Part shown: one piece after another, positions 19,286 to 35,436 of the stretch
How positions within the stretch are numbered: the first letter of the stretch is position 1
How the letters are laid out: each line of letters begins with the position of its first letter
NCBI GenBank assembly: GCA_002255925.1
Contig: NKIH01000004.1
Location: 124,001-188,000 of the forward strand
Length of the DNA stretch: 64,000 bases
DNA from: Burkholderiales bacterium PBB6
GTDB lineage: Bacteria; Pseudomonadota; Gammaproteobacteria; Burkholderiales; Burkholderiaceae_C
Direction: 5' to 3'
Notes under the pieces: model-generated
Seen by the model: the letters and a program-made list of their open reading frames with translations, nothing else
What the model was told of the DNA's origin: nothing
Databases searched by the model: none
Position numbers and translations under genes: made by a program

Positions 19286-19356
19286 GCCCGCAGCGCATTA
19301 GCCCGCAGCGGTTCAGCGCTTCAGCCGTTGGGCACTTCACCCGTTGGGCACGTCAC
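19285..19356. repeat. Two short tandem duplications between converging genes
   Basis: AGCCCGCAGCG occurs at 19285-19295 and GCCCGCAGCG again at 19301-19310. CCGTTGGGCACTTCAC (19325-19340) is followed directly by CCGTTGGGCACGTCAC (19341-19356) with one mismatch. The second pair overlaps the mobA stop codon. It looks like replication slippage. Confidence 0.7.
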
Positions 19357-19970
19357 CCCTGCAGGCGTCGCAGCTCTTCCGGCGTGTTGGCGTTGGCAAA
19401 CGCCGCGGCGTTGTCAAACACGACGGTGGCGCAGCGGTGCTGGGCCGTCCACACATCGATCTTGCGCTGACCTGATTGCGTGAACGCGACCAGGCTTTCC
19501 ATCAGCGAGGTCTTCATCAGGCAGAACACCGGCTGCACCTGCACCTTCAAGGTGCCATCGGCCGAGCCCTCGTCGGGCTCCATCGTGGCCGCCATGGCCA
19601 GATCCGCGTCCTCCGCTTCCAGCGCGGCTGCCAGGCGCTGCACCAGGTCGGGCGGAAAGTTCGGCGTGTCGCAAGGCACGGTCACGAGGTACGGGGTTTC
19701 GCTGCGCTCCAGCCCGGCCAGAAAGCCCGCCAGCGGACCGGGGAAATCGCTCACCGCATCCGGCCAGACCGGGACGCCCATCGACTCATAGGCGCCGAGG
19801 TTGCGGTTGGCATTGATCATCAGATGCCCCACCTGCTGCCCGAGTCGCAGCAGCGCGTGCATGGCCAGCGGCATGCCGAGGTGGTTCTGCAGGCCCTTGT
19901 CGACGCCGCCCATGCGGCTGCCGCGTCCGCCGGCCAGGATCAGGCCGGTGATGTCATCGGTGTTGATCAC
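19353..19970 (-). CDS. mobA: Molybdenum cofactor guanylyltransferase MobA
   Basis: 205 residues. The enzyme attaches GMP to Mo-molybdopterin to give the guanine dinucleotide cofactor used by DMSO-reductase-family enzymes such as formate dehydrogenase. The nucleotide-binding motif [17 protein letters not shown] is at about 11-27, and the [11 protein letters not shown] motif follows at about 100. The start is GTG at 19970, three bases after the stop of the TorD-like gene, so the two are tightly coupled at the end of the leftward operon. Length and motifs are normal. Its product would be consumed directly by the catalytic subunit encoded at 29113-32091. Confidence 0.95.
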
Positions 19971-19973
19971 GCT

Positions 19974-20609
19974 TCAGCCCTCCAGCATGTCGAAGGCTTG
20001 TGTTTCCACCTGCATGAAGGCCTGGGTGAAGCCCGCCAGCTGCCGGTACAAGCGCGCCGCCGGGTGCACGGCCACGGTGTCGCAGAGCTTGCCGACCCAG
20101 GTTTGCAGGTGGTTGCGGAAGAAGCGGCGCTGCTGCTCCAGGTTGCAGGTGGCGATGTCGTCACCGGCGATGAGCCAGCGCATCACTTCCAGGCCGTAGG
20201 CGAGGTGGTCTTCGGTGTCGCCGGAGGTCTCGTCGCGGGTCAGGCCGAGCCGGGCGAGGTCGTCGCGCAGCACGGCCAGCGGCTTCTCGTTCAAGAAGCC
20301 CGCCAGGTAAAACGAGCCGAACAGGAAGACCTCGGGCTTGCCGACACCGCCGAACAGCGCATCAAACTCCAGCTTGGCATCGGCCTCGGTGGTGGCCCGC
20401 AGGGCGCCCACGAGTTGCTCCCACGGGCCTTCCAGAAAGGCGCCTGATTCGGGCGCCTGCGTCACGGCGACGCCGAACTGGCGCAGCAGGGCCTCATCGG
20501 GCGGCGCCAGCCACAGGCGGGCCAGCAGGCCGTACAGCTCGGCACGGGCCAGCTCTTCGCTGTCGTCGGCAGTGGCAAAGCTCAGGGAGCGCAGTTGGTC
20601 GGCGTTCAT
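19974..20609 (-). CDS. TorD/DmsD-family molybdoenzyme chaperone
   Basis: 211-residue all-helical cytoplasmic protein. The family binds twin-arginine leaders and aids cofactor insertion before export. Visible family features are ARAELYGLLARLWLAPPD at the N-terminus, the central EFDALFGGVGKPEVFLFGSFYL (compare the YxxLF...P segment of TorD proteins) and the helical C-terminal half with FFRNHLQTWVGKLC. The partner is probably the Tat-targeted formate dehydrogenase catalytic subunit of the same island, by context. It lies 13 bases after the ferredoxin gene and 3 bases before mobA, so it belongs to the leftward accessory operon. Confidence 0.88.
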   Translation of the reverse strand: MNADQLRSLSFATADDSEELARAELYGLLARLWLAPPDEALLRQFGVAVTQAPESGAFLEGPWEQLVGALRATTEADAKLEFDALFGGVGKPEVFLFGSFYLAGFLNEKPLAVLRDDLARLGLTRDETSGDTEDHLAYGLEVMRWLIAGDDIATCNLEQQRRFFRNHLQTWVGKLCDTVAVHPAARLYRQLAGFTQAFMQVETQAFDMLEG

Positions 20610-20622
20610 GGCGGTGTGCGTT

Positions 20623-22797
20623 TCAGAGCTTGGTGATGTGGGTCTGTTGCTGGTCGCTGAACATGTCGACGACGCGGCAGTCGTTGCACATCTTCAGGCG
20701 ATCGGCGGCGGCGCCCTGGAAGGCCGGATGGCCCGCCAGCTTGCCCAGCATGTTCTCGATGGCCTTCAGCGTGCCGAAGGGCTTGGCGCAGCGGATGCAG
20801 GCGAAGGGCGCAGCCTCATGCAGCACGCGGGCGCTCTTGCGGGCCTTGCCCTCGTCGGCCAGCCACAGGCGCGGCTCGAGCGTGATGGCGGTTTCCGGGC
20901 AGGTGCTGACGCACAGGCCGCATTGCACGCAGTTCTTCTCGATGAAGCGCAGCTGCGGCTTTTCGGTGTTGTCGGCCAGTGCGCCTTCGGGGCAGGCGCC
21001 CACGCAGGCCAGGCACAAGGTGCAGCGGTCGGTGTTGACCTGCAGGCTGCCAAACGGCGAGCCAGCCTTCGGCAGCGCGATGGCTTCCGGCTTGGTCGGG
21101 GCTTGCGAGAGCAGGTGGTCCAGCGCCATGTCGAGCGTGGCGCGCTTGTTGGCCTGGGTGGCCATGGCCAGCGGCTGGGCCACGGTGGCCGCGGGGGCGC
21201 AGCGCAGGGCGGTGTCCAGGCTGGCCAGGTCGCGCGCATCGCGGGCTTCCAGCAGGTGCAGGTGTTGGCCGTCAAAGCCCAGTGCGTGGAGGATGGCCTG
21301 GGCCACCGCCATCTGCTCAGTCAGGGCCTGGCGGTACTCGGGTGCTTCCTCGTCGGTCAGCAGCACCATGATCTGTGAGGCGCCCATCGCGATGGCCGAG
21401 AGCCACAGGTCCAGACCCATGCTGGCGGTGTGCCACACGGCCATCGGCAGCACGCGGGCGGGCACGCCGTGCACATCGGCCTGCGTGCGGGCGGCGCGGC
21501 CCAGCTCATCGATCAGCTGGGTGCCGGCGCCCTGGCTGTGCACCAGCAGCGCCGCGTGCTTGCCGCCGGCGCGCTGGTAGGTGCCCACCAGGGTGCGCAG
21601 GCGCTTGCCCATGTCGACGGTGTCGGGCGTGGCGTAGGCCAGCGCGCCGCTCGGGCACACGGTGGTGCAGGCGCCGCAGCCGACGCACAGGTGCGGCTCG
21701 ACGATGATGCCGCCGCCACCCCCCTGGGCGATCACCTGCTTGCTGACGCCCTTGAGCGAGGCATTGCTGCGGATGGCACTGGTCGAGCACACGTCGATGC
21801 AGGCACTGCAGCCGATCTGCTCATTGCGGCTGTGGGCGCACAGCTTGTGCGTGTAGTGGAAGAACTTGGGCTTGTCGAACTCGCCCACCATCTCGCGCAG
21901 TTGCAGCACGGCGTCCATCCGGCGGCGCTCGTCGCGGCCCGGGTGGAAATAGCCTTGCGGCGGCTGGTGCTGGCTGAAGGCAGGGGCTTCGCGCAGATCG
22001 AGCACCAGATCGAACGCTTCGGTGATCGTGGTCGCGCTGCGGTTGAAATCAATCGCGCCGGCCACCTCGCACACCTGCACGCAGGCGCGGTGGCTGTTGC
22101 AGCGGGCCAGGTCGACCTGGTAGCTGAAGTCGATCGCGCCTTCGGGGCAGACGTCGATGCAGGCATTGCAACGCGTGCACAGCTCGGCGTCGATCGGGTT
22201 GCCGGCCGACCACTGCGCCTCGAACTGACCCAGCCAGCCCGTCAGCCGGGTGAGTTGGCCCGTGTGCACCGGCCAGTCGCGCCGCTGGGGCAGGGCGCCG
22301 CCGGGGCCGTCGAGCAGCAGGGTCACGTACAGCTTGTCGGCCAGCAGCGTGGCCATGCGCACGGCGTCATCGGCGCTGCCGATCACCAGCGTGCGGCCAG
22401 ACGAGCGGTAGGGCACGGTGGCCACCGGCGTGGGGTCGGGCAGCTGGGCCGCGGCGATCAGGGCTGCTAGCTTGGGCGTGGCCTGGGCGCCGTCTTTCGA
22501 CCAGCCGCCGGTTTCACGCAGGTTGACGAAGCGGATCGGCCGTTCGGTGACCGGCTGGGTGCCTTCGGTGGCCGTGTTCAGGTCGAGGAAGAGCCGGCTC
22601 TCCTGGGTGCAGGCCACCAGCACATCGTCGCCCGACTTGGCGGCGCGCTGGAAGCTGCCCGCCTCGCGGCGGCACAGCAGCGAGTGGACCGTCTCCAGGC
22701 CGTCGGTATCAGCGCCCGGTGTCTTCGCCAGGGCCTGGCTCAGCGCGGGGGCGTTCAGCGGCAGGGTCCGGTTGCAGTCGCAAATCAGCGTTTTCAT
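20623..22797 (-). CDS. Large multi-cluster 4Fe-4S ferredoxin-type protein of the formate dehydrogenase island
   Basis: Cytoplasmic protein of 724 residues carrying several ferredoxin motifs: CTRCNACIDVCPEGAI (about 207), a second C-rich segment CNSHRACVQVCEVAGAI, CSACIDVCSTSAI, CVGCGACTTVCPSGAL (about 365), and a C-terminal pair CTLCLACVGACPEGAL and CVQCGLCVSTCPETAI (about 590-630). Two more CxxC pairs near the C-terminus (CIRCAKPFG; CNDCR) could bind metal. I count at least six cluster-like sites. Proteins of this type recur with FDH3-like formate dehydrogenases in betaproteobacteria; the electron partner is unknown. Its 5' end overlaps the DUF3306 gene by 89 bases in another frame. The ATG has no clear ribosome binding site, so coupling to the overlapping gene is likely. 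Confidence 0.88.
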   Translation of the reverse strand: MKTLICDCNRTLPLNAPALSQALAKTPGADTDGLETVHSLLCRREAGSFQRAAKSGDDVLVACTQESRLFLDLNTATEGTQPVTERPIRFVNLRETGGWSKDGAQATPKLAALIAAAQLPDPTPVATVPYRSSGRTLVIGSADDAVRMATLLADKLYVTLLLDGPGGALPQRRDWPVHTGQLTRLTGWLGQFEAQWSAGNPIDAELCTRCNACIDVCPEGAIDFSYQVDLARCNSHRACVQVCEVAGAIDFNRSATTITEAFDLVLDLREAPAFSQHQPPQGYFHPGRDERRRMDAVLQLREMVGEFDKPKFFHYTHKLCAHSRNEQIGCSACIDVCSTSAIRSNASLKGVSKQVIAQGGGGGIIVEPHLCVGCGACTTVCPSGALAYATPDTVDMGKRLRTLVGTYQRAGGKHAALLVHSQGAGTQLIDELGRAARTQADVHGVPARVLPMAVWHTASMGLDLWLSAIAMGASQIMVLLTDEEAPEYRQALTEQMAVAQAILHALGFDGQHLHLLEARDARDLASLDTALRCAPAATVAQPLAMATQANKRATLDMALDHLLSQAPTKPEAIALPKAGSPFGSLQVNTDRCTLCLACVGACPEGALADNTEKPQLRFIEKNCVQCGLCVSTCPETAITLEPRLWLADEGKARKSARVLHEAAPFACIRCAKPFGTLKAIENMLGKLAGHPAFQGAAADRLKMCNDCRVVDMFSDQQQTHITKL

Positions 22798-23341
22798 CGG
22801 GGGTGGGCTCGGGCAGGGTGGGCGTCTCGGAGCGATCGGCTTCGAGCGCGGGGGCTGTGTCGGGGTCGGCGGCGGTGGCCAGGTCGGCGTCGCCTGCCTC
22901 AGGGTCGGTCGGGTCTTTGCGGAACAGGCCGAGGGCCTCGCTCTGCACCATCTTTTCCAGCCAGCCTTCTGGCAGCGGGTCGGGCTGGCTGTAGTCGTCG
23001 ATGTAGATGTCGAGGCCGTCCATCACGTTGTAGTGCGGATCGGCGAACAGCTTCTTCAGCGCGGCATTCCGCACATCGGGATTCACGTCGCGCTGCACGA
23101 AGCGGCTGACTTCGTCGCCTACCTGCAGCTCGGCCACATCGGCCAGGGTGGGCGCGGGCGGCTGTGCGGGGTCGGTGGGCTCGGTGGCTGAAGCACCGGC
23201 AGGCGGCGTGTTGGCTGGTACCGGCGCTGGAGGTGCGACGGGCACCACGGCGGCCGCTTCAGCCTCCCGCACGTCCGCCTTGCGGCGCGACCAGCGCGAG
23301 AAAAATCCGCCAGCCGGGCGGTCGGATTCCGGGGCGCTCAT
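22709..23341 (-). CDS. DUF3306 protein of the formate dehydrogenase island
   Basis: 210 residues. A basic N-terminal GGFFSRWSRRKADVREAE and a Pro/Ala-rich linker are followed by the conserved core SRFVQRDVNPDVRNAALKKL, then LFADPHYNVMDGLDIYIDDYS. The C-terminal tail is acidic and low in complexity. It matches DUF3306, which with DUF3305 is a conserved companion of betaproteobacterial formate dehydrogenase operons; the molecular role is not established. The start at 23341 lies 13 bases after the DUF3305 stop. The last 89 bases overlap the ferredoxin gene, and the tail may exist mainly because of that overlap. Confidence 0.85.
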   Translation of the reverse strand: MSAPESDRPAGGFFSRWSRRKADVREAEAAAVVPVAPPAPVPANTPPAGASATEPTDPAQPPAPTLADVAELQVGDEVSRFVQRDVNPDVRNAALKKLFADPHYNVMDGLDIYIDDYSQPDPLPEGWLEKMVQSEALGLFRKDPTDPEAGDADLATAADPDTAPALEADRSETPTLPEPTPDENADLRLQPDPAAERPRAEPGPGEDTGR

Positions 23342-23354
23342 GGCCGAGGCTGCC

Positions 23355-23837
23355 TCAACGCTGGCCGGGGGCGCGGAACGAGGCCGGGCGCTTGCGCTGC
23401 TTGACCTCGGGGCGGTAGTTGGCGTCGGTCCAGGCCTGCAGCCACTCGCGCTCATCGGCACCCAGCGGCAGGTTGTCGACGCGCTCCTGCGCGTCCAGCA
23501 GCCGGCCCGCCTCGTTGTACGAGAGCGTGACCTGCTCAGGCCAGGCGCGCGACGGGTCTTCGTCATCGACCCGCCACATCACGAACCACACCGGCGCGCC
23601 ACTGGTGAGGTTGAGGTAGTAGCCCTCGCCCTCGTCGTGGAACAGCGTGACGTCGAACCCCGGGTACAGCGTCTGCGCCGTCTTGCCGTCGTCGCGCAGC
23701 ACACGCGGGGCGTCACCGAACAGGCCGGTATCGGGCACCACGTCGGCGATCACGAAGCGCCAGTCTTCCCAGACATTGGGCTGGTGCTGGCGCTCGATGA
23801 CCACCGCCACGCGCAGCTGGGGCAACGCTTCACGCAT
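23355..23837 (-). CDS. DUF3305 protein of the formate dehydrogenase island
   Basis: 160 residues, soluble, no signal. It matches DUF3305: VVIERQHQPNVWEDWRFVI at the N-terminus, TLFHDEGEGYYLNLTSGAPVWFVMWR in the middle and VTLSYNEAGRLLDAQERVDNL near the C-terminus. The family is a near-constant partner of DUF3306 beside formate dehydrogenase genes. Function unknown; a part in assembly or in controlling the enzyme is inferred from genomic association. It is the second gene of the leftward operon, nine bases after apbC. Confidence 0.87.
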   Translation of the reverse strand: MREALPQLRVAVVIERQHQPNVWEDWRFVIADVVPDTGLFGDAPRVLRDDGKTAQTLYPGFDVTLFHDEGEGYYLNLTSGAPVWFVMWRVDDEDPSRAWPEQVTLSYNEAGRLLDAQERVDNLPLGADEREWLQAWTDANYRPEVKQRKRPASFRAPGQR

Positions 23838-23846
23838 GCTCGTCGC

Positions 23847-24938
23847 TCAGGTGTTCTTCGACACGGTGATGGTCGGGAACTTCGACGAGAAGTCCTTGGT
23901 GCGCTGGGCGATCTTCACCGCCACCTGGCGCGCCACGGTCTTGTAGAGGCCGGAGATCTCGCCATCAGGCTCGCTCACCACGGTCGGGCGGCCGGCATCG
24001 GCCTGCACGCGGATCGACAGGTTCAGCGGCAGGGCGCCGAGGTAATCCACGCCGTAGTCGGTGGCCATCTTCTTGCCGCCATCGGCGCCGAAGATGTGTT
24101 CCATGTGGCCGCAGTTCGGGCAGCAATACACAGCCATGTTCTCGACGATGCCGAGGATGGGCACGCCCACCTTCTCGAACATCTTCAGGCCCTTCTTGGC
24201 GTCGAGCAGGGCGATGTCTTGCGGGGTGGTGACGATGACGGCGCCGGTGATCGGCACGCGCTGGCTCAGCGTCAGCTGGATGTCGCCGGTGCCCGGGGGC
24301 ATGTCGACGATCAGGTAATCCAGGTCGCCCCAGTTGGTCTGGCGCAGCAGCTGCTCCAGCGCCTGGGTGGCCATCGGGCCGCGCCAGATCATGGCGTCGT
24401 CTTCATTGATCAGGAAACCGATGGAGGCCACCTTGACGCCGTAGTTCTCCAGCGGCTCCATGGTCTTGCCGTCCAGGCTTTCCGGCCGGCCGGTGATGCC
24501 CATCATCATGGGCTGGCTCGGGCCGTAGATGTCGGCGTCCAGGATGCCGACCTTGGCGCCTTCGGCCGCCAGGGCCAGGGCCAGGTTGACGGTGGTGGTG
24601 CTCTTGCCCACCCCGCCCTTGCCCGAGGCCACGGCGATGATGTTCTTCACGCCCGGCAGCAGCGAAACGCCGCGCTGCACCTGGTGCGCCACGATCTTCA
24701 CGCTCAGGTTGACGCTGACGTTCTCCACGCCACCCACGCTGCGGGTGGCCGCGATCAGGGCCTTGCGCAGCGCCGGCATCTGGCTTTGCGCCGGGTAACC
24801 CAGTTCGACATCAAACGACACGTCGGTGCCGTCGATGCGAAGGTTCCTGACCTGCTTGGCCGACACGAAATCACGGCCGGTGTTGGGGTCGACCACGGTG
24901 GTCAGTGCGTCGAGGACAGCTTGTTCGGTCAGCGCCAT
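23847..24938 (-). CDS. apbC: Iron-sulfur cluster carrier protein ApbC/Mrp
   Basis: 363-residue P-loop NTPase that holds and delivers 4Fe-4S clusters. It has an N-terminal DUF59-like domain (VLDALTTVVDPNTGRDFV), then the deviant Walker A motif SGKGGVGKSTTTVNLA (about 107-122) and the cluster-binding pair CCPNCGH at about 265-270. ATG at 24938 is chosen from homology; a longer in-frame reading to 25166 would run over the operator palindrome and is rejected. It leads the leftward operon DUF3305-DUF3306-ferredoxin-TorD-mobA, which suggests dedicated cluster supply for the many Fe-S sites in this island. A candidate operator lies at 24990-25008, 52 bases before the start. Confidence 0.95.
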   Translation of the reverse strand: MALTEQAVLDALTTVVDPNTGRDFVSAKQVRNLRIDGTDVSFDVELGYPAQSQMPALRKALIAATRSVGGVENVSVNLSVKIVAHQVQRGVSLLPGVKNIIAVASGKGGVGKSTTTVNLALALAAEGAKVGILDADIYGPSQPMMMGITGRPESLDGKTMEPLENYGVKVASIGFLINEDDAMIWRGPMATQALEQLLRQTNWGDLDYLIVDMPPGTGDIQLTLSQRVPITGAVIVTTPQDIALLDAKKGLKMFEKVGVPILGIVENMAVYCCPNCGHMEHIFGADGGKKMATDYGVDYLGALPLNLSIRVQADAGRPTVVSEPDGEISGLYKTVARQVAVKIAQRTKDFSSKFPTITVSKNT

Positions 24939-24989: not shown

Positions 24990-25008
24990 TTGCGACAGCC
25001 TGTCGCAA
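24990..25008. promoter_or_regulatory. Palindromic operator candidate upstream of apbC operon
   Basis: TTGCGACAG-C-CTGTCGCAA is a perfect 19-bp palindrome centred 61 bases upstream of the apbC start, in the 86-base gap between the histidine kinase stop and apbC. It shares CGACA-N3-TGTCG with sites at 28642-28656 in front of the formate dehydrogenase operon. A -10-like TAGACT (minus strand) lies between it and apbC, so binding would overlap the -35 region. Proposed as the binding site of the response regulator at 27169-28590 (inference). Confidence 0.6.
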
Positions 25009-25024
25009 GGGCTTGCCTCAGGGT

Positions 25025-27127
25025 TTACACCGTCTGGGGTGCGGCCAACGCCGGCAGCGTGCCCACCTCGCTGCGCAGGCGCAGGCTGACACGGGCACCC
25101 CGCCCGGGCAGATTGATGACTTGCAGCTCGCCGCCATAGCGTTCGACCAGGCTGTGGCTGATCCACAAGCCCAGGCCGGTGCCCTCATTGCGGCCGGTGG
25201 CAAAGGGCTGGAAAAGGCGGTTGAGCAACTCGGCCGGCACGCCCGGGCCGGTGTCTTCAACCCGGATCTCCACGCCGAGCTCGGCCCAGTCGGCGGTGGA
25301 CAGCCGAAGCTCGCCGCCTTCGGGCATGGCCTGCAGCGCATTCACCAGCAGGTTCACCAGCACCTGCTGCAATTCCTGGCGGTTGATCTGGGCGCTGCGG
25401 GTGTGCTGCCAGTCGGTGTGCACCTGCACCTGGGCATCTCTCAGCAGGTGCTCGACCAGCGGCAGGCAGTCGCGCAGTTCCTTGGCCGCATCGACGGTGT
25501 CGACGTAACCCGCATAGTCACCGGGCCGGGCAAATTGCAGCAGCCGGGTGACGATGAGGCGCATGCGCTCGATCTGCTGGTCCATCAGCGTCAGCTCGTC
25601 GCGCACCAGGCGGGCGTGCGGGCCCAGCAGCTCACGGGCCAGATCGAGGTTGCCCTGGATCACGGCGATCGGGTTGTTCACCTCGTGCGCGATGCCGGCG
25701 GTGAGCTGGCCGATGGCTGCCAGCTTTTCGGCGCGCACCAGCTGCTGCTGGGCGGTTTCCAGCTCCAGCGTGCGGCTGGCCAGCGCGGCGGTGCGCTGCG
25801 CCACCTTGGCATCGAGCGCCTGGTTCAGGGCCTGCAACTCGTCGGTGCGCTGATCGAGCGTGTCGAGCAGGTGGTCGAAATGGGCGGCCAGCTCGCCGAT
25901 CTCGTCGCGGCTATTGACCGCGCCGACACGCGCCTGGCTGTCGCCGGCCTCCAGCTGGATGATGGTGCGGCTCATCTGCTCCAGCGGGTGGAAGATGCCG
26001 CGTGCCCAGCGCAGGCTGACCCAGCCCGCCACCAGCATCACCGCGAAGAAAATCAGGCCGATGGTGGCCAGCGCGATGTATTTCAGCCCGACAAACGGCG
26101 CTTCCAGAAAGCCCACGTAGAGCATGCCGACGCGCCGGCCGAGGTGGTCGGTCAGCGGCAGATAACCGGAAACGTACCAGTCTTTCACGACGAAGGCGCG
26201 GTCCAGCCAGGTGTCGCCCCGGCCCAGCACGGCCTCGCGCACGGTGCTGGATACACGCGTGCCGATGGCCCGTTCACTGGCCTCGCCGCCGAACAGCCGC
26301 ACGTTGGTGCTGATGCGCACGTCGTCGAGGAACAGCGTGGCCGTGCCGTGGCTGCCCTGGGGCAGCGCACCGTCCGGATACACCACCTCGTTGAGCTGGT
26401 CGATGAAGCCGAGATTGCGGTTGAGCAGCACGCCGGCCTGCAGGTGGCCACGCAGCTGGCCATCCGGGCCGCGCACGTCTGCGGTGGCCATGACCACCAT
26501 CGCGCGGTCTTCCTGCGCCTGCGCGCTGGGGGCGGCATTGGCCGTGACCAGCAAAGGCACCGCCACGCGAGCGCGCAGGGCTTGGGGCAGGGCGGCTTGT
26601 TGCGTCGCGCTCAGCACCTCAACCGAGCCCTGGGGCCGTGGGCTGGTCGGGGGCACCCAGGGCAGGGCGGGGCCTTGGGCGGCTGCGGCGCCGGTCTGCA
26701 GGGCGCTGTCGGCTCCGGCCAGCAGTTGCGCGTCAGCGCTGCGGAACTGGATGAAGTCCAGCCGTTCCCGGTCGCGCAGGCGGCGCAGCAGCGCGGGCAG
26801 GTCTTGCGCGTGCGCTCTGGTTTGGTCGCTGCGCACGGCCTGCGTGCTGCCCTGCACCGGCAGCACACCGTCGAGTGCATCGCTCAGCGCGCGGGAGTCG
26901 GCCATCGCCGCCGCGCTGCCCCCCACGTCGGTGAGCATGCGGTCGAAGTGGCTGCGGGCCACGGCCAGGTCGGCCCGCACCTTGGCCACCAGCAGCTGGT
27001 CCACCGCTGCATTGCCCCAGATCAGCAGGAACATGCCCAGCAGCGGCAGCACCACCACCAGCGGCATCAGCACCATCGCCAGCAACTTGCGGCGGATGGG
27101 CCAGTGCTTGAACTGCAGCCGGGGCAT
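25025..27127 (-). CDS. Membrane sensor histidine kinase of the formate dehydrogenase island
   Basis: 700 residues. It has a membrane segment at about 17-38, a large periplasmic Cache-like sensor (about 40-350), a second membrane segment (YIALATIGLIFFAVMLVAGWVSL), a HAMP domain, a coiled coil, a HisKA domain with the phospho-accepting His in GIAHEVNNPIAV, and a HATPase domain with NLLVNALQAM, DTGPGVP and GTGLGLWIS. It follows the response regulator gene by 41 bases and is surely its partner. The periplasmic sensor faces the compartment where the Tat-exported formate dehydrogenase acts, so formate or an electron-acceptor signal is plausible, but the ligand is not shown. ATG 27127 gives a normal N-terminus. 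Confidence 0.92.
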   Translation of the reverse strand: MPRLQFKHWPIRRKLLAMVLMPLVVVLPLLGMFLLIWGNAAVDQLLVAKVRADLAVARSHFDRMLTDVGGSAAAMADSRALSDALDGVLPVQGSTQAVRSDQTRAHAQDLPALLRRLRDRERLDFIQFRSADAQLLAGADSALQTGAAAAQGPALPWVPPTSPRPQGSVEVLSATQQAALPQALRARVAVPLLVTANAAPSAQAQEDRAMVVMATADVRGPDGQLRGHLQAGVLLNRNLGFIDQLNEVVYPDGALPQGSHGTATLFLDDVRISTNVRLFGGEASERAIGTRVSSTVREAVLGRGDTWLDRAFVVKDWYVSGYLPLTDHLGRRVGMLYVGFLEAPFVGLKYIALATIGLIFFAVMLVAGWVSLRWARGIFHPLEQMSRTIIQLEAGDSQARVGAVNSRDEIGELAAHFDHLLDTLDQRTDELQALNQALDAKVAQRTAALASRTLELETAQQQLVRAEKLAAIGQLTAGIAHEVNNPIAVIQGNLDLARELLGPHARLVRDELTLMDQQIERMRLIVTRLLQFARPGDYAGYVDTVDAAKELRDCLPLVEHLLRDAQVQVHTDWQHTRSAQINRQELQQVLVNLLVNALQAMPEGGELRLSTADWAELGVEIRVEDTGPGVPAELLNRLFQPFATGRNEGTGLGLWISHSLVERYGGELQVINLPGRGARVSLRLRSEVGTLPALAAPQTV

Positions 27128-27168
27128 GGCTCAGCCGCGCCGCGGGGTGGTGCGGCGGCAGCCGGGGC

Positions 27169-28590
<1,422 letters not shown>

Positions 28591-28639
28591 AGGCGGCGGA
28601 TTCTAGGCACAGCCGCAAAGACCGGCGCAAGTCGGGATG

Positions 28640-28657
28640 TTGCGACAACTTGTCGCG
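28640..28657. promoter_or_regulatory. Palindromic operator candidate 1 upstream of fdh operon
   Basis: GCGACAA-C-TTGTCGC (28642-28656) is a perfect 15-bp palindrome in the 202-base divergent spacer between the response regulator and the Tat-protein gene. It shares CGACA-N3-TGTCG with the palindrome at 24990-25008. Its centre is 144 bases before the start codon at 28793 and 59 bases from the response regulator start, so it could serve both directions. Confidence 0.6.
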
Positions 28658-28661
28658 CCAA

Positions 28662-28676
28662 CAGACAGATTGTCGT
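28662..28676. promoter_or_regulatory. Imperfect operator candidate 2 upstream of fdh operon
   Basis: GACA-GAT-TGTC (28664-28674) repeats the core of the site at 28640-28657, with its centre 20 bases away, about two helical turns. That spacing is common for cooperating dimers. The outer arms are less symmetric than in the other two sites. Confidence 0.45.
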
Positions 28677-28792
28677 GGTCGGCGTGGGGGTTGTTTCTGA
28701 TTGTTCAAGAAGCTGGCGTCATCCCTAATGTGACGGCTACCATGCATTCAATTGCATAAGTTATTCGCAGTCACGCTGTGCCGGAGATCACC

Positions 28793-29005
28793 ATGAACGA
28801 CGCCAAGAAACTTCCCCCTGTGTCACGACGCACTCTTTTTGCGGGTGTGGGCACGGCAGGCGCACTGGCGGCCGTGGCAGCGGTGTTGCCGAGCGCCCCG
28901 GCGCCCGTGGCTGTCGCCCCTGTGGCGCCCGTGCCGGAAACCGGCAAGGACGGCTACCAGGAAACGGCCCACGTGATGCGCTACTACCAGACCGCCCGGG
29001 TCTGA
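28793..29005 (+). CDS. Small Tat-signal protein of the formate dehydrogenase region
   Basis: 70 residues with a twin-arginine-like leader (SRRTLFAGVG at about 11-20) and a hydrophobic Ala-rich stretch, then a Pro/Val/Ala linker and the short conserved tail DGYQETAHVMRYYQTARV. This is the formate dehydrogenase region Tat-target family, always found just ahead of FDH catalytic genes. There is no cofactor motif, so it may be a small structural or assembly subunit; its function is not known. GGAG at 28783-28786 is 6 bases before the ATG. It heads the rightward fdh operon; the catalytic gene follows after 107 bases. Confidence 0.85.
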   Translation: MNDAKKLPPVSRRTLFAGVGTAGALAAVAAVLPSAPAPVAVAPVAPVPETGKDGYQETAHVMRYYQTARV

Positions 29006-29112: not shown

Positions 29113-32091
29113 ATGCTGCTGACTCGCAGATCCAACCAAGCTGGCCAGAGTGGCTCAGGCCTCGTCAACAGTCTGACGCGAGGTGTGGCGCGCGCCATCC
29201 CCACGATGGACCGCCGCTCCTTCCTGCGCCGCTCCGGCCTAGGTGTGGGTGCCGGCATTGCCGCGTCGCAGCTGACGCTGGTGCGTCGCGCGGAAGCCTC
29301 TGACGCCCCGAAGGCGGCCGACGGCGCCAAGAAGGTGGAAGTCAAGCGCACGGTGTGCGGCCACTGCTCGGTGGGTTGCGCCGTGGACGCGGTGGTTGAA
29401 AACGGCGTCTGGGTGCGGCAAGAGCCGGTGTTCGATTCGCCGATCAACCTCGGTGCGCATTGCGCCAAGGGCGCGGCCCTGCGTGAGCACGGCCACGGTG
29501 AGTACCGCCTGCGCACGCCGATGAAGCTGGTCAACGGCAAGTACGAGCGCATCAGCTGGGACCAGGCGCTGGAAGAAATCAGCGCCAAGATGCTCGAGCT
29601 GCGCAAGGAAAGCGGCCCGGATTCGCTGTTCGTGGTCGGCTCGTCCAAGCACAACAACGAGCAGGCTTACCTGCTGCGCAAGTGGATCAGCTTCTGGGGC
29701 AGCAACAACACCGACCACCAGGCGCGCATCTGCCACTCCACCACCGTGGCCGGCGTGGCCAACACGTGGGGGTATGGCGCGATGACCAACTCCTACAACG
29801 ACATGCAGAACGCCAAGGCGGCGATCTACATCGGCTCCAACGCGGCGGAAGCCCACCCGGTGTCGATGCTGCACATGCTGCATGCCAAGGAAACCGGCTG
29901 CAAGATGATCGTGGTGGACCCGCGCTACACCCGCACGGCCGCCAAGGCCGACGAGTATGTGCGCATCCGCTCGGGCTCCGACATTCCGTTCCTGTTCGGT
30001 GTGATGCACCACATCTTCAAGAACGGCTGGGAAGACAAGAAGTACATCGAGGACCGTGTCTATGGCATGGAGAAGGTGCGCGAGGAATGCCTGACCAAGT
30101 GGACGCCCGAGAAGGTGCAGGAAGCCTGCGGCGTTGACGAAGCCACTTGCTACAAGGTCGCGAAGATCCTGGCCGAGAACCGCCCGGGCACCATCGTCTG
30201 GTGCATGGGCCAGACCCAGCACACCATCGGCAACGCCATCGTGCGTGCCAGCTGCCTGCTGCAACTGGCCCTGGGCAACGTCGGCAAGACCGGCGGCGGC
30301 ACCAACATCTTCCGTGGCCACGACAACGTGCAAGGCGCCACCGACGTCGGCCCGAACCCCGATTCGCTGCCGGGCTACTACGGCCTGGCCGAAGGTTCCT
30401 GGAAGCATTTCGCCAAGGCCTGGGACGTTGATTACGAGTGGATCAAGAAGCAGTTCGCGCCGGGCATGATGACCAAGTCCGGCATGACGGTGTCGCGCTG
30501 GATCGACGGTGTGCTGGAGAAGAACGAGCTGATCGACCAGGAATCCAACCTGCGTGGTCTGTTCTTCTGGGGCCATGCGCCCAACTCGCAGACCCGGGGT
30601 CTGGAGATGAAGAAGGCGATGGACAAGCTCGACCTGCTGGTTGTGGTGGACCCCTTCCCGTCGGCCACCGCTGCCATGGCTGCCATGCCCGGCAAGCCGG
30701 AAGATTTGAACCCGAAGCGCGCCGTGTACCTGCTGCCGGCTTGCACCCAGTTCGAGACGACCGGCTCGTGCACGGCCTCGAACCGCTCGGTGCAATGGCG
30801 CGAGCAGGTCATCGAGCCGCTGTGGGAATCGCGCACCGACCACATGATCATGTACCAGCTGGCGCAGAAGCTGGGCTTCGACAAGGAGCTGGTCAAGAAC
30901 TACAAGATGGTCAAGGGCAAGGGCGGCATGCTCGAGCCGGAGACCGAGTCCATCCTGCGTGAAATCAACAAGAGCGTCTGGACCATCGGCTACACCGGCC
31001 ACTCGCCGGAGCGCCTGAAGGCCCACATGCGCAACATGCATGTCTTCGACGTGAAGACGCTGCGCGCCAAGGGCGGCATCGACAAGGCCTCCGGCTACAG
31101 CCTCGACGGTGACTACTTCGGTCTGCCGTGGCCGTGCTGGGGCACCGCCGAGATGAAGCACCCGGGCTCGCCGAACCTGTACGACACCTCCAAGCACGTG
31201 ATGGACGGCGGCGGCAATTTCCGCGCGAACTTTGGTGTGGAGCGTGAAGGCGTGTCGCTGCTGGCCGCTGATGGCTCCCATTCGCTGGGCGCTGACCTCA
31301 CGACCGGCTACCCCGAGTTCGACCACCTGCTGGTGAAGAAGCTGGGATGGTGGGGCGAGCTGACCGAGGCCGAGCAGAAGGCCGCGGAAGGCAAGAACTG
31401 GAAGACCGACTCGTCGGGCGGCATCATCCGCGTGGTGATGAAGAACCACGGCTGCCACCCGTTTGGCAATGCCAAGGCCCGCGCCATCGTCTGGAACTTC
31501 CCGGATCCGATTCCGCAGCACCGCGAGCCGCTGTACAGCACGCGTCCGGACCTGGTCGCCAAGTACCCGACGCACGACGACAAGAAGGCCTTCTGGCGCC
31601 TGCCCACGCTCTACAAGACCGTGCAGGAAAAGAACAAGGACATCGGCAAGAACTTCCCGCTGATCATGACCTCCGGCCGCCTGGTGGAGTACGAAGGCGG
31701 CGGCGAGGAAACCCGTTCGAACCCCTGGCTGGCCGAACTGCAGCAGGACATGTTCGTCGAGCTGAACCCGAAGGCCGCGAACGACCGTGGCATTCGCAAC
31801 GGCGAGTACGTGTGGGTGAAGACCCCGCCGATGGCCGGTGTCGAGGGCTTCCGCGGCATTCGCGTGAAGGCCATGGTGACCGAGCGCGTCGATGCGGAAA
31901 CCGTGTTCCTGCCGTTCCACTTCTCGGGACGCTGGGGCGGCCTGGACATGGCGGCTTATTACCCGCAAGGCGCCATGCCGGTGGTGCGCGGCGAGGCCAT
32001 CAACACCGCGACGACCTACGGTTACGACAGCGTGACGATGATGCAGGAAACCAAGACCACGGTCTGCCAGATCGAGCGTGACAACGCCTGA
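29113..32091 (+). CDS. Formate dehydrogenase catalytic (alpha) subunit, Cys-type, Tat-exported
   Basis: 992 residues. Molybdopterin-dependent oxidation of formate to CO2 in the periplasm. A twin-arginine leader (DRRSFLRRSGLGVGAG, Arg pair at about 34-35) is followed by an N-terminal 4Fe-4S motif (C82-GH-C-SVG-C, with the fourth Cys in GAHCAKG), then the large molybdopterin domains and a C-terminal dinucleotide-binding domain. The metal ligand is Cys at about 207 (RICHSTTVAG), where E. coli FdnG has selenocysteine, so no selenium machinery is needed. AGGAG lies 5 bases before the ATG at 29113; an in-frame start at 29050 is rejected. It is followed by the Fe-S subunit after 20 bases. Confidence 0.96.
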   Translation: MLLTRRSNQAGQSGSGLVNSLTRGVARAIPTMDRRSFLRRSGLGVGAGIAASQLTLVRRAEASDAPKAADGAKKVEVKRTVCGHCSVGCAVDAVVENGVWVRQEPVFDSPINLGAHCAKGAALREHGHGEYRLRTPMKLVNGKYERISWDQALEEISAKMLELRKESGPDSLFVVGSSKHNNEQAYLLRKWISFWGSNNTDHQARICHSTTVAGVANTWGYGAMTNSYNDMQNAKAAIYIGSNAAEAHPVSMLHMLHAKETGCKMIVVDPRYTRTAAKADEYVRIRSGSDIPFLFGVMHHIFKNGWEDKKYIEDRVYGMEKVREECLTKWTPEKVQEACGVDEATCYKVAKILAENRPGTIVWCMGQTQHTIGNAIVRASCLLQLALGNVGKTGGGTNIFRGHDNVQGATDVGPNPDSLPGYYGLAEGSWKHFAKAWDVDYEWIKKQFAPGMMTKSGMTVSRWIDGVLEKNELIDQESNLRGLFFWGHAPNSQTRGLEMKKAMDKLDLLVVVDPFPSATAAMAAMPGKPEDLNPKRAVYLLPACTQFETTGSCTASNRSVQWREQVIEPLWESRTDHMIMYQLAQKLGFDKELVKNYKMVKGKGGMLEPETESILREINKSVWTIGYTGHSPERLKAHMRNMHVFDVKTLRAKGGIDKASGYSLDGDYFGLPWPCWGTAEMKHPGSPNLYDTSKHVMDGGGNFRANFGVEREGVSLLAADGSHSLGADLTTGYPEFDHLLVKKLGWWGELTEAEQKAAEGKNWKTDSSGGIIRVVMKNHGCHPFGNAKARAIVWNFPDPIPQHREPLYSTRPDLVAKYPTHDDKKAFWRLPTLYKTVQEKNKDIGKNFPLIMTSGRLVEYEGGGEETRSNPWLAELQQDMFVELNPKAANDRGIRNGEYVWVKTPPMAGVEGFRGIRVKAMVTERVDAETVFLPFHFSGRWGGLDMAAYYPQGAMPVVRGEAINTATTYGYDSVTMMQETKTTVCQIERDNA

Positions 32092-32111: not shown

Positions 32112-32729
32112 ATGGCAAGAATGAAGTTCATCTGCGACTCGGAGCGCTGCATCGAGTGCAACGGTTGCGTCACGGCCTGCAAGGCCGAACACGATGTGCC
32201 CTGGGGCGTGAACCGCCGCCGCGTGGTCACGCTCAATGACGGCGTGCCTGGCGAGAAGAGCATTTCGGTGGCTTGCATGCACTGCTCGGACGCCCCCTGC
32301 ATGGCGGTGTGCCCGGTGGATTGCTTCTACCGCACCGACGAAGGTGTGGTGCTGCATGACAAGGACGTGTGCATCGGCTGCGGCTACTGCAGCTACGCCT
32401 GCCCGTTCGGCGCACCGCAGTTCCCGACCAACGGCACCTTCGGCCTGCGCGGCAAGATGGACAAGTGCACGTTCTGCGCCGGTGGCCCGGAAGCCAATGG
32501 CAGCGACGCCGAGAACGAGAAGTACGGCCGCAACCGCCTGTCTGAAGGCAAGCTGCCGGCCTGCGCTGAAATGTGCTCGACCAAGGCCCTGCTCGGCGGC
32601 GACGGCGACGTGGTGGCGGACATCTTCCGCACCCGCGTGATGACCCGCAACAAGGGCAGCGAAGTCTGGGGTTGGGGCACGGCCTACGGCCAGCCCACCG
32701 CCGCCAAGACCGAAGGCGCCAAGTCATGA
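32112..32729 (+). CDS. fdh3B: Formate dehydrogenase Fe-S (beta) subunit, FDH3 type
   Basis: 205-residue ferredoxin-like electron-transfer subunit that links the catalytic subunit to the cytochrome b. Four 4Fe-4S cluster motifs are visible: CIECNGCVTACKAEH near the N-terminus, CMHCSDAPCMAVCPVDCF, CIGCGYCSYACPFGAPQF, and the split set CTFC...CAEMCSTKAL. It lacks the C-terminal membrane anchor of E. coli FdnH/FdoH, as expected for FDH3-type proteins. A GAGG-type site precedes the ATG. Its stop overlaps the next start (ATGA), so it is coupled to the small lipoprotein gene. Confidence 0.95.
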   Translation: MARMKFICDSERCIECNGCVTACKAEHDVPWGVNRRRVVTLNDGVPGEKSISVACMHCSDAPCMAVCPVDCFYRTDEGVVLHDKDVCIGCGYCSYACPFGAPQFPTNGTFGLRGKMDKCTFCAGGPEANGSDAENEKYGRNRLSEGKLPACAEMCSTKALLGGDGDVVADIFRTRVMTRNKGSEVWGWGTAYGQPTAAKTEGAKS

Positions 32730-32977
32730 GCCGCATTGCCCACCTGATCGCGCTGTCGCTGTGTGCGGCCGCGTTGGCCGGTTGCGGCGAACGCGCGCAG
32801 ATCGGCGCGTCCAAGCTGAAGAAGGCGGACGCCAAGCCGTGGGAAAGCGCCAGCACCGACTACACCGACTCGGGCTGGAAGGCTGGTGATGAGACCAGCT
32901 GGCAAGCCCAGATCCGCACCCGTAATCAAAGCCAGAACGAATACCAGCGCACCGGCTCGGTGACGCCGGCCAAGTGA
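32726..32977 (+). CDS. Small lipoprotein between FDH beta and gamma genes
   Basis: 83 residues. The signal peptide ends in the lipobox LAGC (Cys at about 20), so the product should be an acylated envelope protein. The mature part is polar with no cofactor-binding Cys or His pattern (SKLKKADAKPWESASTDY...SGWKAGDETSWQAQ). The start overlaps the beta-subunit stop by four bases, and its own stop lies 17 bases before the gamma start, so it is embedded in the operon. I do not know a function; its place suggests a subunit or assembly factor at the periplasmic face of the enzyme. Confidence 0.82.
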   Translation: MSRIAHLIALSLCAAALAGCGERAQIGASKLKKADAKPWESASTDYTDSGWKAGDETSWQAQIRTRNQSQNEYQRTGSVTPAK

Positions 32978-32994
32978 TGGCGCAAGGAGTGCCC

Positions 32995-34143
32995 ATGAAG
33001 CGCTGCATGCAATCCCTGCTGATCGCCGCGAGCCTCACGCTCACGGCGGGTGGCGTTCTGGCACAGGCGACCCCGGCAGCCGCTGCGTCGGCAGCGCAAG
33101 GCGGGGCACCCGCCGGCTTCGTGGCGCCAGCGCTTCCGAAGCCTGACGACACCGCCGCCGAGCGCAACAAGAGCCAGCCGGGCAACAACGCGCCGTACTG
33201 GCGCGCGGTGCGTGAATCCGGCAACCAGGCGGGCTACAGCTCCTTGCCGGGTGCGGAGAAGGGCGTGCTGATCCAGTCCTTCGTGCAGTACCCGGGCTCC
33301 AGCCTGGCTACGGCCGGGGAGGCCTGGCGCCAGGTGCGCAACCACTGGATCCTGCCGTACGGCGGTGCCCTGCTGTTCATCGTGGCGCTGGCCCTCGGCC
33401 TGTTCTACTGGCGCAGGGGCCCGCTCGGCGGACACGGCGATGCCGATACCGGCCGCCTGATCGAGCGCTTCACGCCGTTCGAGCGCGCGGCCCACTGGTC
33501 GAATGCCGGTGCCTTCACCGTGCTGGCGATATCCGGCCTGGTGATGGCGTTTGGCAAATTCACGCTGCTGCCGGTGATTGGCGCCACGCTGTTCGGCTGG
33601 TTGACCTATGCCCTGAAGACGGCCCACAACTTCGCTGGTCCGCTGTTCGCGGTGTCGCTGCTGGTGGTGTTTTTCACCTTCCTGCGCGACAACTGGCCGA
33701 GCCGTGAAGACCTGACCTGGCTGCTGCGCGCTGGTGGCATGTTCGGTGGCCACGAGGTGCCGTCGCACCGCTTCAACGGCGGTGAAAAGATCGTCTTCTG
33801 GGGTGGCGTGCTGGGCCTCGGGCTGGTGGTGGTGGCGTCGGGCCTGGTGCTCGACAAGGTCCTCCCGGGTCTCGACTACCTGCGTGGCGACATGCAGATT
33901 GCCCACATGGTGCACGGCGTGGCAACGATCCTGATGATGGCCATGTTTGCCGGTCACATCTACATGGGCACGATCGGCATGAAGGGCGCGTACAGCGCCA
34001 TGCGCACCGGCTACGTGGACGAAGCCTGGGCCAAGGAGCACCACGAGCTTTGGTACGACGACATCAAGGCCGGCAAGATCCCTGCGCAACGTTCGACCGA
34101 AGCTGGCCAGGCGCCGGTGGGTCGTCCGGGCGTTCAAGCCTGA
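32995..34143 (+). CDS. Formate dehydrogenase cytochrome b (gamma) subunit
   Basis: 382-residue membrane subunit that passes electrons from the Fe-S subunit to quinone. It has an N-terminal signal-like segment, an Ala/Pro-rich periplasmic stretch of about 100 residues, one membrane segment (WILPYGGALLFIVALALGLFYW), then the four-helix di-haem cytochrome b core. Candidate haem ligands are the His residues in RAAHWSN, KTAHNFAG and the pair in QIAHMVHG, plus AGHIYMG. It is much longer than E. coli FdoI (211) because of the N-terminal part, which is usual in Burkholderiales. AAGGAG lies 5 bases before ATG 32995. Confidence 0.94.
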   Translation: MKRCMQSLLIAASLTLTAGGVLAQATPAAAASAAQGGAPAGFVAPALPKPDDTAAERNKSQPGNNAPYWRAVRESGNQAGYSSLPGAEKGVLIQSFVQYPGSSLATAGEAWRQVRNHWILPYGGALLFIVALALGLFYWRRGPLGGHGDADTGRLIERFTPFERAAHWSNAGAFTVLAISGLVMAFGKFTLLPVIGATLFGWLTYALKTAHNFAGPLFAVSLLVVFFTFLRDNWPSREDLTWLLRAGGMFGGHEVPSHRFNGGEKIVFWGGVLGLGLVVVASGLVLDKVLPGLDYLRGDMQIAHMVHGVATILMMAMFAGHIYMGTIGMKGAYSAMRTGYVDEAWAKEHHELWYDDIKAGKIPAQRSTEAGQAPVGRPGVQA

Positions 34144-34506: not shown

Positions 34507-35436
34507 ATGAGCGCCGCGGCCTCCGCTGCCACCCAGTCCACTGACGCCGTCACGGCGGTGGTGCCTGTGTTGCGGAGCGATGCGCCGCGGATGACGGCTG
34601 CCAGCGCGCCGATGCTCCGCGAGATCCAGATCCAGGACGAATACGGCCAACGCCGCAGCCTGCACATTCCTGCTGAGCGGCCGTTGACGGTGTTCGTGGA
34701 CAAGCGCGAGCTCGTCACCCTGATGACCCTGGGCGCTGCGCCAGAGATGCTGGTGCTGGGTTACCTGCTCAATCAGCGGCTGGTGTCGTCGCTCGAAGAC
34801 ATTGAGTCCATCACCGTGGACTGGGACGTGCATGCCGCCGCGGTGAAAACCCGGCACGGCATTGATGATCTCGACAGCCGCACCGCCAAGCGGGTGGTGA
34901 CCACCGGTTGCGGGCAGGGCACGGTGTTTGGTGACCTGATGCAGCAGGTGGACGCGGTACATCTGCCGGCGGCAGACAGCGCCCGCATCCGCCAGTCGAC
35001 ACTCGCCCGGATGCTGGACACCATGCGCCAGCAAGACAGCATCCACCGCAAGGCGGGTTCGGTCCACGGCTGCGCCTTGTTTGAAGGCGACCAGCTGTTG
35101 ATGTTCGTCGAAGACGTGGGTCGCCACAACGCCATCGACACCATCGCCGGCTGGATGTGGCTGCACGGCGTGACCGGCGGCAACAAGACCTTCTACACCA
35201 CGGGCCGGCTCACCAGCGAAATGGTGATGAAGGCTGCGCACATGGGCGTGCCCATTGTCGTCTCTCGCAACGGCGTGACGCAGATGGGCCATGACTTGGC
35301 CTCGAAGCTCGGCATGACGCTGTTCGGTCGTGCGGCGAACAAGCACTTCCTCTGCTACACCGGCTTTGACCGGTTCGACGCCGAGCCGCTGCCACAACCT
35401 GCGGCGGTGCGGGTGGTGGCGGGCAGCGACACCTGA
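34507..35436 (+). CDS. fdhD: Formate dehydrogenase sulfurtransferase FdhD
   Basis: 309 residues. FdhD carries sulfur from a cysteine desulfurase (IscS) to the molybdenum cofactor, which is required for active formate dehydrogenase. The family motif region is RVVTTGCGQGTVF (about 130-142). Only one Cys is present in this loop, whereas E. coli FdhD has a CxxC pair. Other family segments are VHGCALF, FVEDVGRHNAIDTIAGW and FYTTGRLTSEMV. It is the last gene of the rightward fdh operon. The following 33-base gap to the converging gene has a CGAGCC/GGCTCG stem without a T-run. Confidence 0.94.
   Translation: MSAAASAATQSTDAVTAVVPVLRSDAPRMTAASAPMLREIQIQDEYGQRRSLHIPAERPLTVFVDKRELVTLMTLGAAPEMLVLGYLLNQRLVSSLEDIESITVDWDVHAAAVKTRHGIDDLDSRTAKRVVTTGCGQGTVFGDLMQQVDAVHLPAADSARIRQSTLARMLDTMRQQDSIHRKAGSVHGCALFEGDQLLMFVEDVGRHNAIDTIAGWMWLHGVTGGNKTFYTTGRLTSEMVMKAAHMGVPIVVSRNGVTQMGHDLASKLGMTLFGRAANKHFLCYTGFDRFDAEPLPQPAAVRVVAGSDT

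Follow-up and report, generated by a model that had tools for sequence, protein, structure and literature searches.

The fdh locus and its palindromes

The window analyzed here (the whole stretch of 64,000 nucleotides from Burkholderiales bacterium PBB6) contains a rightward fdh operon, a leftward pair of genes for an NtrC-type response regulator and a sensor histidine kinase, and, behind this pair, a further leftward operon that begins with apbC (Table 1). The original prediction had noticed palindromes with a shared core in front of the two operons and had proposed that they tie both to the regulator encoded between them. The kinase and regulator genes do lie between the palindromes, and the names given to the leftward and rightward sets of genes hold. 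Of the two formate dehydrogenase operons of which it spoke, the rightward one is a dehydrogenase operon, but the leftward one is an accessory operon without a dehydrogenase and likely encodes maturation factors.

Both perfect palindromes are present exactly as described, with TTGCGACA-GCC-TGTCGCAA at 24990–25008 and GCGACA-ACT-TGTCGC at 28642–28656. Their core, CGACA-N3-TGTCG, occurs twice in the window compared with 0.08 occurrences expected, and none of 100 shuffles reached two. To score such sites we used a matrix built from sites at the loci of relatives, for which the consensus is TTGCGACAA-N-TTGTCGCAA with a median training-site score of 27. Judged by this comparison, the two palindromes are copies of one 19-bp operator, not of a 13-bp core; the longer site at 28640–28658 contains the perfect palindrome and lies at approximately −87 relative to the inferred fdh start. 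A second core in front of fdh, GACA-GAT-TGTC at 28664–28674, had also been pointed out; it is present, with its centre 20 bases on, but as an operator it is weak, scoring only 7.2 compared with a median of 27 for sites before the regulator. Tandem second sites in relatives are spaced by 22 or 23 bp in 20 of 28 neighbouring pairs, compared with 20 bp in the window. Because the regulator gene starts ~50 bp from the palindrome at 28642, it is probably a third, autoregulatory target of the operator.

Table 1. Genes and putative regulatory elements of the fdh locus, with positions in the window
Feature	Position	Strand	Remark
mobA, molybdenum cofactor guanylyltransferase	19353..19970	-	
TorD/NarJ-type chaperone	19974..20609	-	
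4Fe-4S polyferredoxin-like protein	20623..22797	-	
DUF3306 gene	22709..23566	-	start uncertain, listed open reading frame overlaps DUF3305
DUF3305 gene	23355..23837	-	
apbC/mrp Fe-S carrier	23847..24938	-	first gene behind the 24990 operator
Accessory-operon putative operator, TTGCGACAGCCTGTCGCAA	24990..25008	.	matrix score 25.5; centre 61 bp before apbC start codon
Sensor histidine kinase (periplasmic Cache, HAMP, HisKA, HATPase)	25025..27127	-	predicted formate sensor (R271, T274, T290)
Response regulator, NtrC type (receiver, AAA+, Fis-type helix-turn-helix)	27169..28590	-	GAFTGA replaced
Main putative operator, TTGCGACAACTTGTCGCGC	28640..28658	.	in divergent regulator/fdh promoter region; matrix score 29.8
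Second, weak operator core, GACAGATTGTC	28664..28674	.	approximately -67; score 7.2
Sigma70-like candidate fdh promoter, TTGTTC - 17 bp - CCTAAT	28701..28729	+	inferred from conservation
Inverted repeat, ATGCA-TTCAAT-TGCAT	28742..28757	.	5' leader of fdhX, just after inferred start
fdhX, formate dehydrogenase region TAT target	28793..29005	+	first fdh operon gene; TIGR02811
fdhA, formate dehydrogenase alpha subunit	29113..32091	+	Fdh-alpha model best, under curated cut-off
fdhB, iron-sulfur subunit	32112..32729	+	
fdhC, cytochrome b561-type subunit	32974..34143	+	
fdhD	34507..35436	+	

The fdhX product scored 47.7 bits against TIGR02811, whose cut-off is 48.45. Beyond mobA, at 18002–18856, lies a ModE-like gene with HTH_1 and TOBE domains that possibly adds control by molybdate.

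The operator follows the regulator

To place these sites in a wider context, we used the best 80 of 510 confirmed relatives of the regulator, whose loci were retrieved by means of an alignment of 20 regulators; these loci are mostly from Burkholderiales by title (bins titled otherwise are L044, L047, L066, L099, and L102). In 62 of the 80 loci, the motif GACANNNTGTC was found in the interval from −400 to +60 relative to the start of the regulator gene, and it had 79 hits in those 36 kb compared with 37 in the remaining 1.39 Mb. Strong sites (score ≥18) elsewhere in the 80 loci number 18. Thirteen of these stand before DUF3305-led accessory operons that are either codirectional with or convergent to the kinase gene, two before fdhX, two before a selenocysteine formate dehydrogenase of the FDH-N class, and one (L036) has no recognised neighbour. 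The FDH-N assignment was checked for L053 alone (TIGR01553, 1432 bits), and an in-frame TGA selenocysteine codon is present in L050, L053, L054, L094, L140, and L153. Because of the operator near selenocysteine FDH-N, the regulator may have targets in two separate formate dehydrogenase classes. One genome (G075; L009 and L026) encodes two paralogs of the regulator with an operator upstream of each. The L035 copy of the regulator, kinase, and fdh genes comes from a record whose title is Variovorax sp. WS11 plasmid pVarWS11_iso, and the module may therefore be mobile.

In 250 family genomes, with the regulator counted at E ≤1e-150 and FdhA orthologs at E ≤1e-250, the regulator was found in 51 genomes and GCGACAANTTGTCGC in 40. 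This motif was present in 30/51 genomes with the regulator vs 10/199 without it, and the reversed control, which shows no relation to the regulator, in 19/51 and 78/199, respectively; of the sites in the ten regulator-less genomes, nine were fetched, and six of them lie inside a PP2C phosphatase gene. FdhA orthologs are encoded in 119 genomes; 42 of these also have the regulator and 77 do not, and ~1.2 kb upstream of fdhA was fetched for 40 and 74 of them, respectively (G041, G161, G003, G101, and G104, with fdhA matches that are truncated or located at the end of a contig, were excluded; among the 74, contig ends shorten the stretch obtained in four). The bare core lies upstream of fdhA in 39/40 genomes with fdhA and the regulator compared with 2/74 with fdhA but not the regulator. 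At a matrix score of 16 the counts are 39/40 and 0/74; the matrix was trained in part on loci from species that also occur among the regulator-positive genomes, while the bare-core count is free of this overlap. An operator is still found before fdhA where the regulator is unlinked, its start being ~12 kb (G199), ~19 kb (G195), or ~211 kb (G058) from that of fdhA. Conversely, G076, which belongs to the window's own genus, encodes an FdhA with 90% identity but has no regulator (at E ≤1e-100) and no operator.

The bare core on its own is uninformative on a genome-wide scale. GCGACANNNTGTCGC occurs at four places in the 4.41-Mb genome compared with two for the reversed control, at 201 compared with 239 when summed over 80 family genomes and, with one mismatch, at 64 compared with 85 in the window's own genome. 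We therefore dropped its genome-wide enrichment as evidence; the evidence is carried by position and by the longer consensus. Random scatter of the motif and its absence from orthologous operons had been named beforehand as observations that would speak against the operator. Scatter is indeed true of the bare core, and conservation at orthologous operons was found, both before fdhA and at the regulator loci. One of the four places, L001, falls within a PP2C phosphatase gene and reflects its coding sequence by chance; a conserved stretch encoding GDNLSL gives rise to GCGACAAC-TGTCGC-like palindromes through codon coincidence (L001, L114, L115, L150, L151, L155, L156, and L157), a trap for genome-wide motif scans. 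Separately, a strong copy of the operator at L004 (1499–1517; C25:212802–212820 in the genome) is followed, after ~50 bp, by the gene for another molybdopterin oxidoreductase. This gene is present in 66 of 80 genomes, and 30 loci were fetched, one of which is the window's own; as the site was found in 0/29 orthologs, we did not extend the regulon to this oxidoreductase, which is perhaps a local recruit.

Loss of the GAFTGA loop and of the −24/−12 promoter

The regulator has a PF00072 receiver domain (residues 28–138), a PF00158 sigma54-activator AAA+ domain, and a PF02954 Fis-type helix-turn-helix. Its Walker A and B motifs are kept (GESGTGKE and GGTLFLDE, in columns that are invariant or nearly so in the 20 aligned orthologs). 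By contrast, GAFTGA is gone: between ELFG and DGLF the whole loop is replaced by QAWRGPDSSRQVR. Judged from these motifs, the regulator of the window is not an ordinary sigma54 activator, a point absent from the original prediction.

In the 77 of 80 loci in which the loop is readable, GAFTGA is intact in 29, 17 loci differ from it by one substitution at the threonine, and the other 31 have loops that are changed in other ways or deleted. We searched for −24/−12 sites with a score of at least 9 of 11 in the fdh direction and 40–200 bp downstream of the operator in the 60 loci that have an operator and a divergent fdh in view. Such a site was found in 27/29 GAFTGA loci compared with 6/31 others, the window being among the others; the six have GAFSGA (three), GAFPGA (two), or GVIQGV (one). 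In shuffled segments, a score of 9 was reached in 61/3000 and a score of 8 in 307/3000. The −24/−12 promoters of the GAFTGA loci, e.g., TGGCACGCTTCTGGCT, lie 62–177 bp downstream of the operator. None of the nine GAFAGA loci in the set (L035, L056, L060, L063, L065, L066, L069, L071, and L100) has even a score-8 site, and neither does the window in the anchored interval, its best GG-N10-GC in the fdh direction scoring 6/11. GAFPGA loops are found in L082, L085, and L019, and a good −24/−12 promoter is kept in L082 and L085; proline may be tolerated at the threonine position of GAFTGA.

RpoN is encoded in 20/20 genomes tested, including the window's own, and because it is retained, the change concerns the fdh target and not a loss of sigma54. 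In a tree of the regulator built without the loop, the window lies in a 30-row clade (98*) in which 27 rows have lost the loop, one has GAFAGA, and two are unread, while a GAFAGA group of eight lies elsewhere (100*), nested among GAFTGA rows with branch support of 85–93. An operator was also found upstream of the DUF3305- or ApbC-led operon in 14/18 loop-altered loci with this region in view, including the window, compared with 0/16 loci with T, S, or P at the loop; the 14/18 are dominated by two clades, and S and P were grouped with T after the data had been seen. The −24/−12 counts above are those with GAFTGA taken strictly. We read this pattern as a target-specific switch of sigma factor during which the operator was kept. 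We further favour, with moderate confidence, the view that release from sigma54 happened more than once in this one orthologous regulator, i.e., in the window's clade of ~30 loci, in the GAFAGA clade of eight, and perhaps in L056. On every such occasion the −24/−12 promoter at the same target would have been lost and the operator retained, with an operator also at the accessory operon in the two larger clades. Among the papers listed in searches of the open-access literature, we found no report of a joint loss of GAFTGA and the −24/−12 promoter.

A candidate for the promoter used instead was obtained by aligning nine divergent regions, namely those of the window, of seven loci without the loop, and of L158, in which the loop is unread. 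A TTG-N3-N17-NNTAAT element is common to five of the nine (the window, L027, L031, L032, and L046). In the window, its −35 would be 28701–28706 and its −10 would be 28724–28729, centring the operators at approximately −87 and −67, positions that would suit activation of a sigma70 promoter from upstream. In addition, ATGCA-N6-TGCAT lies 41 bp after the −35-like TTG in fixed register in the window, L027, L031, and L046; this repeat is possibly a second operator or a leader structure.

Probable formate sensing, proposed mode of activation, and known systems

A profile of the sensor domain was built from 35 domains (the window's plus 34 of 71 available). At E ≤0.1 it matched only two PDB entries, 8py0 (1.1e-5) and 8py1 (3.4e-4), both titled as chemoreceptor sensor domains 'in complex with formate'. 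In the HMMER alignment, an R-x-x-T followed by G-T of 8py1 is paired with R271, T274, and T290 of the kinase, and these three residues are invariant in 35/35 sensor domains. For PacF, changes at R142, T145, and T158 are reported to affect formate binding in a paper on a related receptor (PMC12501870). The predicted structure of the sensor has a larger periplasmic domain (mean predicted local distance difference test score, pLDDT, 86), the sequence match to the formate receptors being confined to its C-terminal part. The likeness to PacF, Atu0526, and the receptors of 8py0 and 8py1 thus consists of the Cache fold, the profile match (8py0 and 8py1), and the aligned Arg/Thr/Thr; these proteins are chemoreceptors, whereas the protein of the window is a histidine kinase adjoining fdh. 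From these similarities, the kinase most likely senses periplasmic formate through its Cache domain. Because the operator tracks the regulator and recurs at rearranged accessory operons, and because the kinase resembles formate-binding Cache sensors, the proposal of a dedicated formate regulon with a defined operator for the neighbouring regulator appears well supported by comparison, with a site of 19 rather than 13 bp. No description of this operator, or of this two-component system at fdh, was found among the papers listed in the same searches of the open-access literature.

We consider it likely that the palindromes are operators of the adjacent regulator, that the kinase is its formate-sensing partner, and that fdh is activated without sigma54 in the window's lineage. 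Specifically, the kinase would sense periplasmic formate via its Cache domain and phosphorylate the regulator, which would bind TTGCGACAA-N-TTGTCGCAA at 28640, acting on its own gene and the fdh operon, and at 24990, acting on the maturation operon. An ordinary sigma54 activator, working ~60–180 bp upstream of a −24/−12 promoter via its GAFTGA loop, would be the state of the regulator in many extant relatives and probably also the ancestral one; in the lineage of the window, the regulator would activate fdh from approximately −87/−67 at a sigma70-type promoter. Because the loop and the −24/−12 promoter are gone and the operator is kept, activation most likely proceeds without sigma54.

Several observations weigh against this proposal. 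Eighteen of the 80 loci have no operator before the regulator; two of these contigs end at the gene, two loci have imperfect copies, and five have strong sites elsewhere in the locus, leaving nine unexplained. The absence of the L004 site from all 29 orthologs fetched also counts here. The association between loop and promoter is not independent of phylogeny: only two independent pairs lie on starred branches, so that a sign test cannot reach significance, and Fisher values for loop vs promoter, being uncorrected for kinship, are not taken as probabilities. Nor is the coupling strict, as −24/−12-like sites accompany altered loops at the DAFTGA loci L073 and L091 (scores 8 and 8), at the GSFTGA locus L096 (8), and at the GVIQGV locus L052 (9), while the GAFTGA locus L099 has no such site. 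The sigma70-like element was not found in L034, L037, L081, and L158 of the aligned regions and is present in only 4/34 fdhX-led loci (the same four relatives), and a generic scan for sigma70 promoters and terminators found no promoter. For the sensor, Foldseek ranks LuxQ and other Cache sensors above the formate receptors (8py0 is 19th with an E value of 8.7e-5, and 8py1 is 37th with 9.1e-4); the identities of these receptors, 19–22%, are the highest among the 50 rows shown. Finally, exchange of the conserved arginine in Atu0526 is reported to have raised formate affinity and abolished the response (PMC8698456); the conserved arginine is therefore no proof of formate binding.

We also considered that the loop-less regulator could be a repressor of fdh and accessory transcription that is released by formate. 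In Caulobacter, NtrC has no GAFTGA and is reported to repress genes with sigma70 promoters (PMC10274813), and the 24990 operator is only 61 bp from the apbC start. However, both fdh operators are situated farther upstream than the inferred −35 and do not overlap it, relatives have the same site at the enhancer position of an activator, and the receiver, AAA+, and kinase domains are all retained; we regard repression as unlikely, though it is the strongest of the alternatives. Somewhat less probable still is that sigma54 continues to be used through the divergent loop and an unrecognised −24/−12 promoter. The presence of RpoN and the −24/−12-like sites kept in some altered-loop relatives would fit this idea, but in the window the loop is replaced over its full length, the best GG-N10-GC reaches only 6/11 with none passing in the anchored interval, and a TTG-N17-TAAT element is shared with four close relatives. 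Co-occurrence alone cannot name the protein that binds, and the operator might belong to another regulator that is co-inherited with the two-component system and fdh. We judge this doubtful, and slightly more so than continued use of sigma54, given that the site precedes the regulator's own gene in 62/80 loci, that it precedes fdhA in only 2/74 genomes without the regulator yet persists when the regulator is unlinked (G058, G195, and G199), and that in relatives it occupies an NtrC-type enhancer position 62–177 bp upstream of −24/−12 promoters. That the palindromes are chance or coding coincidences is highly improbable: the bare core is at control level (201 vs 239) and the L001 copy is a coding coincidence, but the window has two copies where 0.08 are expected, these are conserved at orthologous positions, and both GCGACAANTTGTCGC (30/51 vs 10/199) and the core before fdhA (39/40 vs 2/74) track the regulator.

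The classical formate-responsive sigma54 activators of enterobacteria are FhlA and HyfR; FhlA detects cytoplasmic formate through N-terminal domains of its own and has no receiver domain. The system of the window resembles them in its predicted formate input and, in the GAFTGA relatives, in its AAA+ sigma54-activator output, and differs from them in being a two-component system with a receiver-bearing regulator and a periplasmic sensor. In Cupriavidus, FdsR-type LysR regulators control a soluble NAD-linked formate dehydrogenase; these likewise concern formate dehydrogenase regulation in Burkholderiales but belong to another protein family and act on another enzyme. For a respiratory formate dehydrogenase family, here mostly from Burkholderiales, a sensor, a regulator, and an operator can now be proposed, an aid to the engineering of formate-grown bacteria. 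The apparent, repeated departure from sigma54 with the operator kept is more interesting than the regulon itself.

Enhancer-binding proteins without GAFTGA, of which HupR is one, have so far been scattered examples. Rhodobacter capsulatus NtrC, Caulobacter NtrC, and Vibrio cholerae VspR also lack this motif and are reported to be active at sigma70 promoters (PMC10274813). Like the regulator of the window, they are AAA+ regulators in which the sigma54-contact loop is lost, but they serve other pathways. Unlike them, the orthologous family of the window mixes intact, substituted, and deleted loops in one place with the same operator throughout, and the state of the loop largely matches the presence or absence of a −24/−12 promoter at the same target. 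If our interpretation is true, this family would form a natural series that leads, with RpoN retained in the genomes, from an enhancer-dependent ATPase activator to a conventional sigma70 regulator, and because the loop states coexist at a shared operator and target, it becomes possible to test directly in which order the events of such a sigma-factor switch took place.

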